From Methanofollis fontis (GTDB lineage Archaea; Halobacteriota; Methanomicrobia; Methanomicrobiales; Methanofollaceae), in contig NZ_PGCL01000001.1 of assembly GCF_004297185.1 (NCBI RefSeq), positions 558,001-622,000 on the forward strand: a DNA stretch of 64,000 nucleotides, in the 5' to 3' direction. A model generated the notes under the pieces. That model did no database searches and was not told the origin of the DNA. It was given only the letters and a program-made list of their open reading frames with translations. Of this stretch, positions 23,562 to 40,982 are shown one piece after another. Made by a program: the position numbers and the translations under genes. The stretch's first letter is position 1; the number at the start of each line of letters is the position of its first letter.

Positions 23562-26399
23562 TTAATTTTTATCGAATTCTGTGTTATTTTGCTCTTTGTA
23601 AAGGCCATAGTGGCGTTTGAGCACTTCCCTGACCTTGTCAGACTCCACCCAGCCCTGATCCAGGAGGGTGACGATGCGGTCGATCTCCCGGGCGAGTGAG
23701 ATGATCTGCTCCATGTTGGGGCTATCCTCGAGAGCGGCAAGCCCGATGATGCCCTGGAGGGGGTTTCGGATCTGGTCGTTGAGGACTGCAAACTGCTCCA
23801 TATTCCTTTCAATCCTCCTGAACGCCTCAACCGCCCTCTCTTCCATCTGGATGCGTTCCCTGATGTCCCGCATGATCGAGAGGATCACCTGTCTGTTATT
23901 GAGGCTGAACATGTGGGCCCTGACATCCACCGGCACCCTCTCCCCCCCACTGGTGCGGAGCACCGCCTCGAACTGGCACCGCCCGCAGGCGGCGAGTCTC
24001 TCCATGATGGCCGCAATGTCGGTCCGCTCGCTGTCGACGATATCATAGAGGAAGGATGAGAGGAGTTCTGCCCTGGTGTAGCCGAGCATTGTGCAGAGAC
24101 TCTCGTTCACCTCGGTGAACTCTCCCGGTCTCAACCCCTCCTCGACCACGTTCAGGGAAATGCCGTCGGTGGCGTTGTTGAAGATCGCCCTGAACTTCTC
24201 CTCGCTCTCGATCAGGGCCTCCCTGGCCCTCTTCTCCTCGGTAACGTCCATCAGCGTCCCGACACACGCGGGGGCCCCCCTGAAGGTGATCGGAGACCCG
24301 ATCGCCTCCAGAAAGCGCACTTCGCCGTCCGGTTTCCTGCAGCGGATCCCGGTCTGGAAGGGTCGGTCGGGGGTGGCGACGAACTCCTCCCAGCGTTCCC
24401 GGTCGGCGGGATCGATGAGTTCTGCTATGGAGAGGTCCAGGAGTTTGTCTTCGTGCTCATACCCCAGGATATGCGCCAGGGCCGGGTTGGCGTAGCCGAT
24501 CCTCCCGTTCTGGACAACGTAGACTCCGATGAGGGAGTGTTCGACCGGGTTGTGATACATCTCCTCATCCATCTCACGCTGGATGGCGAGGCCGATGATC
24601 CGTCCTGCCGCCTGCAGGGCCTCGATCTCGGCGTTTGACCAGTGCCGCTCGTCATGGCAGTCATCGAAGCCGATGAAGCCGAACCATCTCCGTCCCACAT
24701 GGATCGGGGCGACCACGAGTGCCTGTATCCCCTGCGGCTCGAGATATGCGCGTTCCAGGGCAGGGAATGTGCGGACGGCCCCTGAGATCATCCCTCCCTT
24801 CGAGAGCGCTTCTGCCCAGCGCGTGGCGGTCGGGTCGTAGGGAAGGTTCTGGAGATCGGGATTGTCGATCTCCTCCGAAACACCATCCTCTGTCCATTCC
24901 CAGCGCTGACTCATCAGGATCTCGCCGGTCCGGGGGTCGGTGCTGTTCTCGAAGATGTAGGTCCTGCTCGCCTCCGCCGCCTCGCCGAGATCGCTGAGCA
25001 CCAAACCGATTTCCTCCTTCCAGGAGGAGGAGCCGAGGAGCTGCCCGGCGGCGAAGTTGACCGCTTCAAGGATGCGATCCCGGCGTTTCAGTGCATGTTT
25101 CGCCTCTTCTGCCGCCGATACGTCGCGGGTCAGACCGAAAAAGGCCTCTTCGCCCTCCCACATCCCAACAGAAACCCGGCTTTCCACCTCGATGACGCGC
25201 CCGTCCCTTGCGATGATCGGGACGGCGCAGATGGTCTTTGTCCCGGCAAGCATTTCGCCGAAGTTCTGCTCCGCCTCAGCACGGCGTTCGGGCACATGGA
25301 GGTTGAGGAGCGGCATTCCCTTGAGTTCTTCGGCGGTGTAGCCGAGGGTTGCCTGGACCGAACGGTTCGTCGCCAGCACATGGCCGTCACGGCTGATCAC
25401 GAAGATGAGATCGACCATGCCGTCAAAAAGGGTCTGCAGGTTCTGCTGTTGTTTTTTCAGTTCCTCTTCGATCTTCATCCGCCGGATCGCCCCGCCGATC
25501 TCCCGTCCGATGCTCTCGAGTGTGCGCCGCTCATCGGCACGGAAGAGGTGGCGCCGCCTGTTGATCACATTGATGGCACCGAAGATCTGGTCATGCTCGA
25601 AGATCGGAACGCTGGCGAGCGAGGCGAACCCGAACTGTGCTGCCCGTTCGGGCGAGATCGCCGGATAGTTCTCGGTATAGATCGCCTGACCCTCGCCGAA
25701 TATGCGGTCATAGGGGGGCGAGTTCACGTCCACCTCCCTGACTTCGGACAGAAACGCCAGCGGCACCCCGGACTCGCAGACCACCTCCGCCCTGCCGGCC
25801 TCTCCCAGAAGATAGATCCCTCCGGCGTCGAAGGAGAGCAGGTGCAGTGTTTCTTCAAGCACGCCCTGGAGGAGGGTCTGCAGCCCGTCTGCCCTTCCCG
25901 CAACCGTGATGATCCGGTTGAGCACTTCCAGGCGGCGCCGTGTCAATGCGTCCGTGAGGATCTCGTCGTCGTCCGGGATACGCTCCCTGAGGGTGAAGAG
26001 GTAAAGGTCTCCCCCGGGGGGAGAGAGCGGGGCCAGCGAAACGTCGTATCCGATCAACGATCCCCCGATGCCCCTCAGGGTGCATGAGATCTCCCCGGTT
26101 CCCGCATTCAGTGATTCCATGTCATGGACCAGAGCTGAAAAGGAGCAGTCCGATCGGGTTTCAAGGTGAAAAATCCCCTCGATCGAATGCCCGACCAGCT
26201 CCGTCACGATGATGCCGGTGATCTCCGCCATTCCGTGATTTGCCAGCAGGATCGTCCCGTTCTGATCTGCAATTGCAGCAGGGAGAGATATAGCGGAGAG
26301 GAGCGGTCTGATGATCCGCCCCTCCGGTCCACCGATGTCACTCTGATCGGTGTCCCATGCCGGCATCTCGCTTTCCGGGTTCTGTTCTTCCGGTCTCAT
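23562..26399 (-). CDS. Large PAS/GAF sensor protein with degenerate kinase core
   Basis: A 945-residue cytoplasmic sensor. By eye the domains are PAS (about 30-135), GAF (165-305, containing SFDAGGIYLLGEAGRAEVV), PAS (320-430), GAF (445-605, ending FIGFDDCHDERHWS), PAS (610-720) and PAS (735-860). A short helical tail (860-945) follows. The tail contains AVLNDQIRNPLQGIIGL, which matches a histidine-kinase H-box except that the phospho-acceptor His is Asp875. No HATPase domain follows. It therefore cannot autophosphorylate like a normal kinase and may act as an accessory sensor or dimer partner. The next sensor gene upstream is a complete hybrid kinase. A TATA-like TATATATC lies near 26455-26465. 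Confidence 0.85.
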   Translation of the reverse strand: MRPEEQNPESEMPAWDTDQSDIGGPEGRIIRPLLSAISLPAAIADQNGTILLANHGMAEITGIIVTELVGHSIEGIFHLETRSDCSFSALVHDMESLNAGTGEISCTLRGIGGSLIGYDVSLAPLSPPGGDLYLFTLRERIPDDDEILTDALTRRRLEVLNRIITVAGRADGLQTLLQGVLEETLHLLSFDAGGIYLLGEAGRAEVVCESGVPLAFLSEVREVDVNSPPYDRIFGEGQAIYTENYPAISPERAAQFGFASLASVPIFEHDQIFGAINVINRRRHLFRADERRTLESIGREIGGAIRRMKIEEELKKQQQNLQTLFDGMVDLIFVISRDGHVLATNRSVQATLGYTAEELKGMPLLNLHVPERRAEAEQNFGEMLAGTKTICAVPIIARDGRVIEVESRVSVGMWEGEEAFFGLTRDVSAAEEAKHALKRRDRILEAVNFAAGQLLGSSSWKEEIGLVLSDLGEAAEASRTYIFENSTDPRTGEILMSQRWEWTEDGVSEEIDNPDLQNLPYDPTATRWAEALSKGGMISGAVRTFPALERAYLEPQGIQALVVAPIHVGRRWFGFIGFDDCHDERHWSNAEIEALQAAGRIIGLAIQREMDEEMYHNPVEHSLIGVYVVQNGRIGYANPALAHILGYEHEDKLLDLSIAELIDPADRERWEEFVATPDRPFQTGIRCRKPDGEVRFLEAIGSPITFRGAPACVGTLMDVTEEKRAREALIESEEKFRAIFNNATDGISLNVVEEGLRPGEFTEVNESLCTMLGYTRAELLSSFLYDIVDSERTDIAAIMERLAACGRCQFEAVLRTSGGERVPVDVRAHMFSLNNRQVILSIMRDIRERIQMEERAVEAFRRIERNMEQFAVLNDQIRNPLQGIIGLAALEDSPNMEQIISLAREIDRIVTLLDQGWVESDKVREVLKRHYGLYKEQNNTEFDKN

Positions 26400-26587: not shown

Positions 26588-29500
26588 TCATCGCATGGTC
26601 ACGCCCGTGTCATCCTGATCGGTACGGTAGGCCCCGAAGGGCACGGTGATCTCGAAACAGGCGCCCTTCCCCTGGATCCCCACCTCACGTATGGTGAGGC
26701 CGGTGATCGAGAGGATCTCGCGGGCGAGGAAGAGGCCGTAGCCGGTGTTCTTCCCGACGCCGCGGTAGAAGATCTTGCCCTTGTCCCTCTCCTCGATCCC
26801 GTGACCGTCATCCTCGCAGAGGATCACCAGGTGGTCACCCTCCAGCCTCGGCGAGAAGCGGATCCTGCTCACCCCGTCGCCGTGGCGGATGGCGTTGTCG
26901 ATCAGGTTGATGAACACCTTTTCGAGGAGGGGATCGGCATAGATTTCCATGCCGTTGAGGTCGTTCTCGATCACCGCCTCGTTTCTGGGGAACATCCTCG
27001 CCGCATTGGCGACGAGGTGTCGGGCATTCTGCCATGCCGGCGTGTGGACGCCGATATCCTGATAGTCCTTGGTAAAGGAGATCTGGTGCCTGATCACGTT
27101 GGCGGACTCCTCTGCCTTCTCGATGAGGGTGATCACCTCGGAGTCGAGCCCGAAGTCCCTGACAAACTCCAGGTAGCCAAGGAGGCTGGTGAGGCGGTTG
27201 AGCACGTCATGGCGTGTGATGCTCGAGAGGAGGTTGAGTTTCTCGTTTGCCCGTTTCAGCGCCTCCTCCACGCGTTTTCTGTCGGTGATGTCGCGTTTGT
27301 TCTCCCTGCGGCCCAGATATTTGCCGTCAGGTCCGAAAACAGGCTGACAATAGTGGCTGATCCACTTGATGTCGCCGGTTTTGGTGATGATCCGGTAATC
27401 GATATGGCAGACCCCTTCCTGCTCGTGGATGCCACCATGGTAGTGGGTCTCCACCAGGTCGCGGTCCTCCGGGTGGACGATGCGGATCATCAGCATCGGG
27501 TCCTCCATGAACTCCGCCGCAGCAAACCCGGTGATCCGTTCGCAGGACGGCGAGACATAGAAGTACTTGCCGTCGGGCTTGAACCATGCCTCCCAGTCGT
27601 AGGTGAAGTCTGCAAGGGTACGGTATTTCACCTCGTTTTCCCGGAGGGCCTGTTCCATCCGTTTTCTCTCGCTGATGTCCGAGATCACTCCAAGAATGCC
27701 GGCAACCGTTCCATCTGCGGTCATGAGGGCGGTCTTTGAGAAGAGGACGTCGAGGCGTTTCCTGTTCCGGTCGGTGATCGCATATTCGTAGCGCTGGACA
27801 TGAGGGCGAGCGATGATCAGGTGGTCCTTCTTCTTGTAGAACTCGGCGTACTCCCGCGGGAAGAAGTCATGGATCGTTTTGCCGACGATTTTGTTCTTTG
27901 AAAGTCCGACGAGTTCCTCGAAGGCGCGGTTGCAGTCGTGATAGACGCCATTGGTGTCGCGGTAGAAGACGGGCGCCGGTATGGCGTCCATCAGTGCATG
28001 GACATAGTTGACCTTCTCCTTGAGGTCGATCTCCATCTTTTTGCGCTCGCTGATGTCGACGATCACCCCGACGATGCCTGCCACCGATCCGTCTGCACGC
28101 AACAGGGCGGTCTTTGAGAAGAGGACGTCGATCTTCTGTCCGTCACGGTCGGTAATGGCGAACTCATAGCGCTGGACATGGGGGTGATCGATGATCAACC
28201 CGTCCTTTTCCTTGTAGATGTCGGCGTACTCCCGCGGGAAGAAGTCGTGGATCACCTTGCCGGTGATCTCCTCCCTGGAGAGTCCGACGAGTTCCTCGAA
28301 GGCGCGGTTGCAGTCATGGTAGATGCCATGGGTGTCGCGGTAGAAGACGGGTGCCGGTATGGCGTCCATCAGTGCCTGGACATAGTTGACCTTCTCCTTG
28401 AGGTCGATCTCCATCTTTTTGCGCTCGCTGATGTCCATGATCACCCCGACGATGCCTGCCACCGATCCGTCTGCGGTCATGAGGGCGGTCTTTGAGAAGA
28501 GGACGTCGATCTTCTGTCCGTCACGGTCGGTAATGGCGAACTCATAGCGCTGGACATGGGGACGCTCGATGATCAACCCGTCCTTTTCCTTGTAGATGTC
28601 GGCGTACTCCCGCGGGAAGAAGTCGTGGATCTCCTTGCCGATGATCTCGTTCTTGGCAAGACCGACGAGTTCCTCGAAGGCGCGGTTGCAGTCATGGTAG
28701 ATGCCATGGGTATCGCGGTAGAAGACGGGCGCCGGTATGGCGTCCATCAGTGCCTGGACATAGTTGACCTTCTCCTTGAGGTCGATCTCCATTGTCTTGC
28801 GCTCGGTGATGTCCAGGATGGTGCCGATGATCACCTTCTCGCCCTCGATGGTGGTCACCGAACCATGGACCTCGGCGGTGATCATGTTGCCGTCGCTCCT
28901 GACCCCTCTGAACTCGTAGGTGTCTCCGCTCCCCTCGCTCCGCTCCCTCATCTTTTCCGCCACGAAGGGGCGGTCCACGGGGTGGACGATATGGAGCAGG
29001 GGCATGTTGTCTGACATCTCCTCGGCGGTATAGCCGAACATCTCTGCAAACCGGGGGTTCACATAGGTGAGTCGCCCGCTCCTGAGGATGTAAATTCCGA
29101 CCGGGGACTGCTCAGAGAGCACCTTGAACTTGTTCTCGGAATCTCGCAGCGCCTCTTCGGCCAATTTCCTGTCGGTGGTGTCACGTCCGACCGACTGGTA
29201 CTCGATCAGGGTGCTGTTCCCGTCAAAGATCGCCCGGTCCACCCACTGCTGCCAGCGCATCACCCCATCGTCGAGCACCACCCGGTGCTCGATGGTGCCG
29301 ACCGGGTTCTCCGGGGTGAGACTGTCGAAATGGGCCCTGATTCGTGCCTTCTCGTCCTGAGGCACGTCAGGGAAAAAGTATTTGCCGACGATCTCATCGG
29401 GATCTTTCCGGTAATATCTGCAGAAGGCCTCATTGGCGAAGACCTGTGTGCCATCCGGGAGAAAACGGCTGATCAGTTCGGTCTGACTCTCGACGACGGC

Positions 29501-29917
29501 GCGATAGCGCGCCTCGCTGATCTTCAGCGCCGCCTCGGCGCGGGTGTTCTGGACCGCCTGCCTGATCATGTTCTTCAGTTCTGCGAACTGACTCTTCGGG
29601 TCCCCGCCTTTCTGGAGGTAGAAGTTCGCTCCGTTGTTGAGGGCCTCGATGACGACGTCCTCCCGACCCCGCCCGGTGAAGATGATGAAGGGTGCGTTGT
29701 TCCCGCCTGCCCTGATCACCTTGAGAAACTCGATCCCGTCCATCTCTGGCATCTCGTAATCGGAGATGATCGCATCGAATGACTGCCCGGAGAGGACGTC
29801 GAGGGCCTCGTGTGCACTCAGGCATGTTGTGACCGCAAACTCGTGCCCTTTCCTGAGATAGAGGCTGGTGACATCAAGGATCATGGGGTCGTCGTCGATG
29901 AGCAGAACTGAGATCAT
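26588..29917 (-). CDS. Hybrid sensor histidine kinase: receiver, six PAS domains, HisKA/HATPase
   Basis: A 1109-residue protein with an N-terminal receiver domain (1-120, phospho-acceptor Asp53 in SDYEMPEMDG). Six PAS domains follow (about 133-255, 258-377, 378-503, 504-629, 630-755 and 760-885), then an archaeal-type kinase core. That core has His903 in SSITRHDVLNRLT, the N box LIDNAIRHGDG, the G1 box DDGHGIEERDKG and G2 GYGLFLAREI. PAS domains three to five are tandem copies of a 126-residue (378-bp) unit, at 27653-28786 in DNA. The N-terminal receiver suggests it takes a phosphate from another kinase and passes a signal within the chain. No output regulator is adjacent. Confidence 0.93.
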   Translation of the reverse strand: MISVLLIDDDPMILDVTSLYLRKGHEFAVTTCLSAHEALDVLSGQSFDAIISDYEMPEMDGIEFLKVIRAGGNNAPFIIFTGRGREDVVIEALNNGANFYLQKGGDPKSQFAELKNMIRQAVQNTRAEAALKISEARYRAVVESQTELISRFLPDGTQVFANEAFCRYYRKDPDEIVGKYFFPDVPQDEKARIRAHFDSLTPENPVGTIEHRVVLDDGVMRWQQWVDRAIFDGNSTLIEYQSVGRDTTDRKLAEEALRDSENKFKVLSEQSPVGIYILRSGRLTYVNPRFAEMFGYTAEEMSDNMPLLHIVHPVDRPFVAEKMRERSEGSGDTYEFRGVRSDGNMITAEVHGSVTTIEGEKVIIGTILDITERKTMEIDLKEKVNYVQALMDAIPAPVFYRDTHGIYHDCNRAFEELVGLAKNEIIGKEIHDFFPREYADIYKEKDGLIIERPHVQRYEFAITDRDGQKIDVLFSKTALMTADGSVAGIVGVIMDISERKKMEIDLKEKVNYVQALMDAIPAPVFYRDTHGIYHDCNRAFEELVGLSREEITGKVIHDFFPREYADIYKEKDGLIIDHPHVQRYEFAITDRDGQKIDVLFSKTALLRADGSVAGIVGVIVDISERKKMEIDLKEKVNYVHALMDAIPAPVFYRDTNGVYHDCNRAFEELVGLSKNKIVGKTIHDFFPREYAEFYKKKDHLIIARPHVQRYEYAITDRNRKRLDVLFSKTALMTADGTVAGILGVISDISERKRMEQALRENEVKYRTLADFTYDWEAWFKPDGKYFYVSPSCERITGFAAAEFMEDPMLMIRIVHPEDRDLVETHYHGGIHEQEGVCHIDYRIITKTGDIKWISHYCQPVFGPDGKYLGRRENKRDITDRKRVEEALKRANEKLNLLSSITRHDVLNRLTSLLGYLEFVRDFGLDSEVITLIEKAEESANVIRHQISFTKDYQDIGVHTPAWQNARHLVANAARMFPRNEAVIENDLNGMEIYADPLLEKVFINLIDNAIRHGDGVSRIRFSPRLEGDHLVILCEDDGHGIEERDKGKIFYRGVGKNTGYGLFLAREILSITGLTIREVGIQGKGACFEITVPFGAYRTDQDDTGVTMR
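27653..28786 (-). repeat. Three tandem 378-bp copies of a PAS-domain unit inside the sensor kinase gene
   Basis: The phrase CTCCATCTTTTTGCGCTC occurs at 28031 and 28409, with variants at 27653 and 28787, exactly 378 bp apart each time. Copies are 28409-28786, 28031-28408 and 27653-28030. The first two are nearly identical at DNA level over most of their length; the third is somewhat diverged. Each encodes a 126-residue PAS plus linker with the phrase DAIPAPVFYRDT. Confidence 0.92.
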
Positions 29918-39380: not shown

Positions 39381-40982
39381 TTACTCCCCGATCTCCCCTC
39401 GCACCGTCAGAAACACCGGGCCCCGCACATCCACCTTCCTCTTATTATCGGTAATATACCGCATCGTCCAGTCCGGGATCCGCAGGTTCACATCCGACGG
39501 CGTCTTCGCCATCTTCACCTGCACGCTCGCCGCCTCCCCGCAGCGGGCCGCCTCCTCGATGCGGGCCGCCGCCAGGTTCGCTGCCGCCATCAGGTAGGAG
39601 ATGCCGGTGGGTGCGCCGTTCGCCCGGACGTCGGCGAACTTCTCGGTGTCCGGGACGCCGAGCACGCGGCCGTCCTGCACAAAGACCTCGTTGAAGGTGG
39701 CCGGCCCGCAGAGCCGCGAGTTCTCCTCGGGCTCCTCCACAAACACACGGAGGCGCCGCCCGCCGACCTCGCCCTCGAAGGCCAGGAATGAGCAGGGCCC
39801 TTCGGCTGCGGCGTTCGCCGTCGCCGTCGCCATGATCGCCTCCACCAGGGCCCGCCCCTCCGGGCTCTGCGCCTCCTCCCTGAGGGTGATCGCCGCGGCG
39901 ATCTCCCGGTCGGTGAGGGTGCGGGGGAAGAACTGGGGATGGGTGAGTTTTCTGACGTCGTCGGCCTGGTAGAGGATCATCGCCAGCCGCTCCACGCCGA
40001 GGCCCAGGTTCATCACCGGCACCCCGATGCCGTACTCCCCGAGGGCCGAGGGGGAGTACATGCCGAAGGTGGCCACCTCCACCCATCCGATCTCCGGGTG
40101 GCGGGCGTAGACCTCGGTCTGGGTGTCCGGGATATAGTATTTGGAGCGCTTCTCGTCAGGGCGGAACTCGAAGTCCTCAAAACCGAAGGCCGAGAGCAGG
40201 GCCTCGGAAACCGCCTTGCCGTCCTCGATCGTGATCTCCTCACCGGCCAGCACGCAGGAGGCCGAGTGGTAGGTCATCAGGCGGGTCGGCCCCTCCTCCT
40301 GCTCACGGCGGAAACAGCGGTCGATCGAGAAGAGACAGATCGGGCGGGGGTAATGCTCCCACATCGCCCCCAGGGAGAGGAACCAGCCGCTCGTCATATG
40401 GGAGCGCAGCGTCGTCCTGGACGACTCCGGGGCGAGGTCCCGGAACTCCGGGAAGATCGAATCCAGGATATGCACCACCAGGGCATCGTCGATGCCGAGG
40501 TCGGCGGCGATCTCATGGCTCAGTTCGTCGCCGTCGATCGTCGCCTTCTTATAGGCGTGGAAGGTCTGCTGGAGTTTCTCCTTCACCTCCTCGGGGGGAA
40601 CGGCGTAGGAGTCGTTCTCGGCCCTGATGATCCCCATGATCTCCTCGGCCTGACGGTCCGAGATCCCCACGTTCGGCCGCGGCAGACCGCCGAGATAGAA
40701 GACGCGGTCCAGCACGGCGCTCGCCTCCGGGCCGAACTGGCGATAGACGTCCGCCTCCTCGATCATCAGCGGCACGCGGGCCTCGTCGAAGCCCATCGAG
40801 AGGTAGACCTCGCGGAGGCGCTGGATCGTCTCGGCGATCGGGTGCGGCGCCGCCCGCCGGAAGCCCTTCCTCGGATAGGTTGCGGCCAGCGACGGGCGGG
40901 AGAGCACCTCCGGCCCCCGGTGCCAGGCGCCCTCGAAATCGGTTCTTGACAGTTCCTTCCAGAATTCAGGATCAAATCTCAT
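39381..40982 (-). CDS. sepS: O-phosphoserine--tRNA(Cys) ligase (SepRS)
   Basis: A 533-residue class II synthetase charging tRNA-Cys with phosphoserine, which SepCysS then converts to Cys-tRNA. Diagnostic motifs are [13 protein letters not shown] and [12 protein letters not shown], whose His/Thr and Ser residues bind the phosphate, the motif 2 region [14 protein letters not shown], and [15 protein letters not shown] (Asn and motif 3). N-terminal [12 protein letters not shown] and PRKGFRR also match methanogen SepRS. It is not PheS, which lacks HMTSGWF. It starts 3 bases after the taw1 stop, as the last gene of the prf1-argS-taw1-sepS operon. SepCysS is not in the window. Confidence 0.95.

Follow-up and report, generated by a model that had tools for sequence, protein, structure and literature searches.

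A histidine kinase of Methanofollis fontis with a copy-variable tandem array of PAS domains whose copies appear to exchange sequence

The 64,000-nucleotide stretch of the Methanofollis fontis genome analysed here, referred to as the window, contains on its minus strand (26588..29917) the gene of a 1109-residue histidine kinase with an N-terminal REC domain. This protein belongs to the archaeal REC-(PAS)n type, and its central PAS domain has become a copy-variable tandem array. Taken as a whole, the observations are probably best explained by a REC-(PAS)n kinase carrying stacked sensor modules, in which unequal exchange changes the number of units and gene conversion acts between them.

The open reading frame and its Pfam matches (Response_reg, PAS_3/4/8/9 and HATPase_c) give the domain order REC-PAS-PAS-[PAS x3]-PAS-HATPase; all coordinates below refer to the minus strand. 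The REC domain (29594..29908, residues 4-108) matches PF00072 with an E value of 1.3e-21 and 77.3 bits, the cut-off being 30.2. Its residue D53, located in the stretch ISDYEMP, is invariant in 4/4 aligned genes (that of the window and three single-copy orthologues), and is the putative equivalent of Asp57 of CheY. Two non-repeated PAS domains (28793..29593) precede the array. The second starts at about residue 262 (PAS_8 match, residues 262-316), and the border of the first was inferred from the alignment. The PAS domain located 3′ of the array (27320..27562; PAS_3 match, residues 786-866) is outside the repeat family, its ungapped amino acid identity to the repeated units being 12-13%. Further downstream lies the sequence RHDVLN (27197..27214, residues 902-907), which is invariant from R902 to N907 in 4/4 aligned genes and which is the probable H-box of the dimerisation domain; Pfam HisKA gave no match in the kinase (26588-29917) at E≤0.001. 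The catalytic domain HATPase_c (26636..26929, residues 997-1094) matches PF02518 with 51.4 bits against a cut-off of 26.4. The PAS content detected by Pfam in the kinase amounts to six PAS_9 stretches plus the PAS_3/4/8 matches. The repeated units themselves score above the cut-offs of PAS_4, PAS_9 and PAS. An earlier note, made from the sequence alone, had described a triplicated PAS domain inside a kinase gene.

Tandem Repeats Finder (TRF) delimited the array at 27654-28819, with a period of 378, 3.1 copies, 0% indels and a score of 1796. It is the only long-period array among the three found in the window; the two others (37-81 and 39529-39570) are short tandem repeats with an 18-bp period. 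Together with a comparison of the copies, this defines three consecutive, in-frame units of exactly 126 codons each, without indels, which we name A (28415..28792), B (28037..28414) and C (27659..28036). The earlier note had drawn the repeat 6 bp out of this phase, a shift of no consequence given that any phase may be chosen for a tandem repeat, and had described it as an exact 378-bp triplication in which two copies are almost identical in DNA. The period and the three in-register units are real, but the triplication is not exact. Units A and B share 94.7% of their DNA (20/378 bases differ) and 92.1% of their protein sequence, A and C share 84.7% and 82.5%, and B and C 82.5% and 79.4%, respectively. 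Near-identity in DNA can thus be said of A and B only, and loosely, and C is the most diverged copy of the three. The 126-codon stretches on both sides of the array, compared with the units without gaps and in the same register, display only 6-13% protein identity, which indicates that the likeness of A, B and C goes beyond the common PAS fold. TRF detected no second long-period PAS array in 20 stretches of this genome (107,520 bases) that hold 48 of its 71 own-genome matches, the other matches being located in the window (4) or elsewhere (19). Weak partial direct repeats, with 67-76% DNA identity, are present in other kinase regions (L100 1461-2126, L097 3407-4361 and L086 2487-2981) and are perhaps older PAS duplications.

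The host genome is a draft of 22 contigs (2.36 Mb), and arrays of this kind can trouble assemblers. In the Methanospirillaceae MAG G129 two contigs break inside the array, L060 at its end (G129:C25) and L061 at its start (G129:C88); the array likely has three units if both contigs belong to one gene. That the assembler duplicated or mis-ordered copies in M. fontis is nevertheless very unlikely: A, B and C all differ from each other and stay in frame, no exact repeat within the array is longer than 80 bp, and arrays of this kind, with two or three copies, are also carried by relatives whose assembly is a single contig (G102, G111, G113 and G120). A further, identical copy could have been collapsed in the assembly. 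As in G129, PAS arrays may split assemblies and conceal copy number.

At E≤1e-150 the kinase was found in 4/12 genomes of the genus, the window's own included. The three orthologues (G009, G011 and G004), 74-75% identical overall, each contain a single 126-codon unit at the place where M. fontis has three; in every case the units are in frame, with the same two domains next to them. The genes around the kinase of M. fontis recur in its relatives. In both G011 and G004 the gene is flanked by DUF2115 on one side, and on the other a 101-aa ORF precedes ABC-transporter genes; the contig of G009 shows the side with the 101-aa ORF and the ABC genes only. Since G004 and G011 are assembled in 1 and 2 contigs, respectively, collapse of a repeat is an unlikely reason for their single copy. 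Two further features of this locus were observed. In M. fontis a 945-aa PAS/GAF protein (23562-26399, minus strand) is encoded between the kinase and the 101-aa ORF; it has no HATPase match and a HisKA match only below the cut-off. In G011, G004 and G009 the two flanking ORFs are adjacent, and no counterpart was found in this interval. In G009, a short ORF (contig 84, L072, 588-1127, plus strand) lies directly upstream of the single-copy orthologue; it is 79% identical over 137 aa to the kinase, in the REC region, and is apparently a partial tandem duplication.

The unit was matched at E≤1e-25 in 58 of the 232 genomes of the order Methanomicrobiales, and two or more adjacent units were detected in at least 14 of these 232, including this one, when the best candidates of each genome, up to 18, were scored. 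Reading of the genes revealed three units in G092, G093, G110, G111, G112 and G120, two in G102, G113, G115, G118, G213 and G218, and one in G197, G203 and G208. The two- and three-unit arrays of other genera of the order occupy the corresponding site of the kinase. REC, PAS and HATPase are present in all nine of the 13 array-bearing relatives that were scanned with Pfam, and GAF also in G213 and G218. Of 392 genomes drawn from the phylum, 25 had matches at E≤1e-35, and adjacent units, judged by positions only, were confined to the order Methanomicrobiales. The gene sequences thus support variation in copy number (1, 2 or 3 in-frame units) between species, whereas the earlier note had envisaged it between strains.

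Divergence at synonymous sites, which the earlier note had put forward as a way of comparing the copies, was estimated next to that of the flanks. The flanks differ from those of the single-copy orthologues by a dS of 0.96-1.16 (NG86). For A/B the dS is 0.10 (NG86) or 0.19 (YN00), and for A/C and B/C it is 0.48 and 0.50 (NG86) or 1.00-1.05 (YN00); the YN00 values inside the array are about twice those of NG86, YN00 having been applied to the array only and NG86 to both array and flanks. The dS of the units is 0.95-1.05 to G009 and 0.53-0.80 to G011 and G004 (NG86). The A/B pair is clearly younger than the split from the single-copy orthologues, or was recently converted. C is not clearly younger than this split. 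The word "recent" in the earlier note is therefore appropriate for the A/B pair but not clearly so for C, with a dS of 0.48-0.50 against 0.53-1.05 to the single-copy units. Conversion can in addition make copies look younger than their true age.

The direction of the change was addressed with two trees. A tree of the flank proteins, from which the array had been removed (18 genes, three cut rows having been dropped), requires at least five copy-number changes among the states 1, 2 and 3. In this tree the three single-copy genes form a starred clade with the window gene as its sister, and the array-bearing genes that are nearest by path after these three include G092 and G093, with three units each. 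The genus-group ancestor might accordingly have had three units, as Methanoculleus-type relatives do, two of which were lost in the three single-copy relatives. The unit tree (42 rows) adds to this, as A and C group with the single-copy orthologues to the exclusion of B (95/89), which makes a three-copy ancestor with later contraction possible; the data are also compatible with a clade of A, B and C (p-AU 0.247). Moreover, A and B differ from the units of G011 and G004 by a dS (0.53-0.61) that is little above the values for A/C and B/C. However, all six units of the genus group (the three studied here and the three single copies) form one clade (100/99), so that no old pairing by position links the copies of the window to the Methanoculleus-type units, and the dS of A/B (0.10, NG86) is far below the 0.53-1.05 to any single-copy unit, a value that conversion could also have lowered. 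On balance we regard loss of two units in the relatives as rather unlikely, and favor gain of units in the lineage of M. fontis as part of the explanation given at the outset. In the unit tree the f5 units mostly group by position and not by genome, which suggests that the f5 arrays are old and stable.

Several results indicate that the copies within the kinase appear to exchange sequence, although the tract statistics are mixed. Within the genome the DNA identities of A/B (0.947), A/C (0.847) and B/C (0.825) exceed those to the single-copy units (0.759-0.807). Judged by the longest identical run, silent identity is clustered for A-C (P=0.005) and B-C (P=0.028). Over all pairs, the longest run was significant (P<0.05) for 5/14 paralogue pairs and 0/10 orthologue pairs, and the number of runs for 2/14 paralogue pairs (A-C and units 2-3 of G093) and again 0/10 orthologue pairs; in these tests pairs share sequences and are not independent, and orthologue pairs that differ almost everywhere, such as A-G009 (37/40 informative codons), have little test power. 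The pattern is clearest in the first 44 codons, a border that was drawn after the maps had been viewed. Of the informative silent codons there, A and C differ in 4/17, compared with 14/15 for A and G009 (Fisher P=8e-5). Inside the unit, the contrast for A-C is 4/17 in codons 1-44 versus 16/29 beyond (Fisher P=0.064).

These numbers bear on an alternative, namely plain tandem duplication without later exchange, the conserved blocks being due to purifying selection. A and B are indeed close enough to stem from one recent duplication, their silent differences are not clustered (P=0.48), and by number of runs only the two paralogue pairs mentioned are clustered. Protein constraint, however, fails to explain the identity of A and C, because the same codons differ silently at 14/15 positions between A and G009. 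Similarly, units 1 and 2 of G093 differ at 0/11 informative silent codons in codons 1-44 and at 15/25 beyond (P=0.0007), whereas unit 2 of G092 and unit 2 of G093 differ at 11/11 in codons 1-44. Blocks are thus shared at silent sites that vary between species, and duplication without exchange is improbable as a full account.

Other arrays were compared in the same manner. The three-unit arrays of two Methanoculleus-type genomes, G092 and G093, which replicate the pattern outside the family of M. fontis, are located at L056 5740-6873 (minus strand) and L057 6253-7386 (plus strand). Within G092 the sequences of units 1 and 3 differ at 4 bp and within G093 at 3 bp, as against 33-36 bp between the genomes, and unit 2 of G092 and of G093 is 25 residues apart from units 1 and 3. 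An A-B-A pattern is thus maintained separately in G092 and G093. In G092, units 1/2 and 2/3 differ at 5/12 and 4/12 informative silent codons in codons 1-44, and the longest run is not significant for any of the three pairs. Units 2 and 3 of G112 have a significant longest run (P=0.0024), yet 16/27 informative silent codons differ in codons 1-44, which indicates that the homogenised stretch is not always the same one. In most f5 units, likeness within a genome does not exceed likeness between genomes. Together, the sequences indicate that the copies in some arrays, namely that of M. fontis and those of the two Methanoculleus-type genomes, are not diverging independently, most clearly in the first 44 codons. 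The proposal in the earlier note that the repeat expanded by recombination or is subject to conversion is hence supported as regards gain or loss of units in a lineage (one unit in three syntenic orthologues, three here) and, with the mixed statistics described, as regards exchange.

Some silent codons are common to B and C, others to A and C. Inspection by eye of B as a simple hybrid from unequal crossover (5′ part of C and 3′ part of A) revealed no single breakpoint, and this origin of B was discarded. In the single-copy relatives, one PAS domain and the next have only short homology at their borders, the longest in-register exact match being 6-9 bases, and border homology is a weak candidate for the cause of the first duplication.

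An AlphaFold2 model of the unit (pLDDT 90, pTM 0.82) displays an N-terminal helix followed by two strands, helices and three strands. The structural matches listed by Foldseek and VIA-align are overwhelmingly PAS domains, with VqmA as the top row for Foldseek and 9rc0 for VIA-align (Z 17.0, rmsd 2.7 over 114 residues). Using the general naming of PAS elements, we take codons 1-44 to comprise the helix plus A-beta, B-beta and C-alpha, and codons 45-95 to comprise D-alpha to G-beta. The profile of the unit matched only two solved sequences at E≤1e-5, those of BvgS (PDB 6zj8) and DvhD (PDB 9rc0). As to the ligand, the structural matches listed include heme (FixL, DosP), flavin (NifL, LOV) and quorum-signal PAS domains and hence point to no single ligand class, and no histidine in the helix at 61-76 is common to A, B and C. 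A model of three stacked PAS domains was poor (pTM 0.36, seven sequences).

The extra PAS domains could each have been recruited to a different ligand instead of constituting one repeated sensor. The A/B differences, located in codons 46-54, 76-77, 105-106 and 119, lean toward amino acid changes, with 10 amino-acid-changing to 5 silent codons versus 21 to 37 for A/G009 (Fisher P=0.043, one of six tests), and the distance of unit 2 from units 1 and 3 in G092 and G093 points in the same direction. On the other hand, 31/126 columns are invariant across 29 aligned units, the A/B differences are few and without an identified pocket, and the same contrast for A/C versus A/G009 is not significant (P=0.15). 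Recruitment to different ligands is in our opinion unlikely, and a repeated sensor of one class remains the preferred reading.

Duplication of PAS domains has reportedly been described for cyanobacteria by Narikawa and coworkers in 2004. Multiple PAS domains that arose by intragenic duplication are also known from KinE and BkdR, the KinE duplication predating a species split (PMC3734008). As in these proteins, several PAS domains of the kinase studied here stem from duplication inside the gene; unlike KinE, as treated in the available part of that paper, genus relatives differ here in copy number, with partial homogenisation of the copies. Archaeal kinases of the REC-HisK type, REC-(PAS)n-HisKA-HATPase, are an established class that had not been characterised experimentally by 2018 (Galperin et al. 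2018, PMC5847659). The kinase resembles them in its N-terminal REC, following PAS domains and C-terminal HATPase, and differs in that the accessible portion of that account concerns tandem duplication of whole genes, whereas here similar PAS copies vary in number between orthologues and appear to exchange sequence. Concerted evolution has been described for mtrA-1/mtrA-2 of Methanomicrobiales and Methanococcales, where long-lasting conversion homogenises one domain (PMC4632066). That exchange, according to the sections at hand, takes place between two genes of one operon, and the one proposed here between tandem domains of changing number within one gene. The cytoplasmic PAS domain of BvgS forms dimers stabilised by flanking helices, and no ligand was found for it in the part of the study available (PMC3726324). 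The BvgS and DvhD PAS domains belong to another architecture, are ~20-24% identical to the unit, and the BvgS and DvhD material consulted mentions no tandem array. In Methanosarcina acetivorans, two kinases with multiple PAS/GAF domains function as redox sensors, and the consulted part of the same source states that few archaeal signalling systems have been characterised (PMC6944256). REC-(PAS)n kinases and intragenic PAS duplication are thus known; a copy-variable, partly homogenised PAS array is apparently new, as we found no description of copy-variable or concertedly evolving PAS arrays among the matches listed from the open-licence literature.

The mechanism that we propose would work as follows. 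Homologous recombination between similar units, and perhaps also between the DI(S/T)ERKxME stretches, alike in sequence, where one PAS domain meets the next, would add or remove whole 126-codon units in frame by unequal exchange, and gene conversion would overwrite stretches of neighboring copies; in M. fontis, A and B would be the younger, or the recently converted, pair. Lying in a stack between REC and the kinase core, the units would act as PAS modules that dimerise and that each carry a signalling helix at the N terminus. The signalling rod would become longer with every added unit, and cytoplasmic signals of one class may be multiplied or integrated. Through homogenisation, the half formed by the helix and A-beta/B-beta/C-alpha would stay common to all units, and the half from D-alpha to G-beta would be left free to differ.

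What each copy contributes in multi-PAS sensor kinases is, in our judgement, largely unanswered for archaea. One orthologous kinase that exists naturally in versions of one, two and three units, in the same frame and with the same neighbors, constitutes a ready-made comparison. Besides mtrA, Methanomicrobiales may have in this kinase a second gene that was shaped by sequence exchange. More tentatively, and with some doubt on our part, PAS copy number might act as an evolvable dial, in which units are gained and lost in frame, conversion keeps the signalling half common and the sensor half diverges, so that the kinase would be re-tuned across the order and possibly within populations. The sensor section of this kinase seems to expand and contract, its units evolving together like a family.
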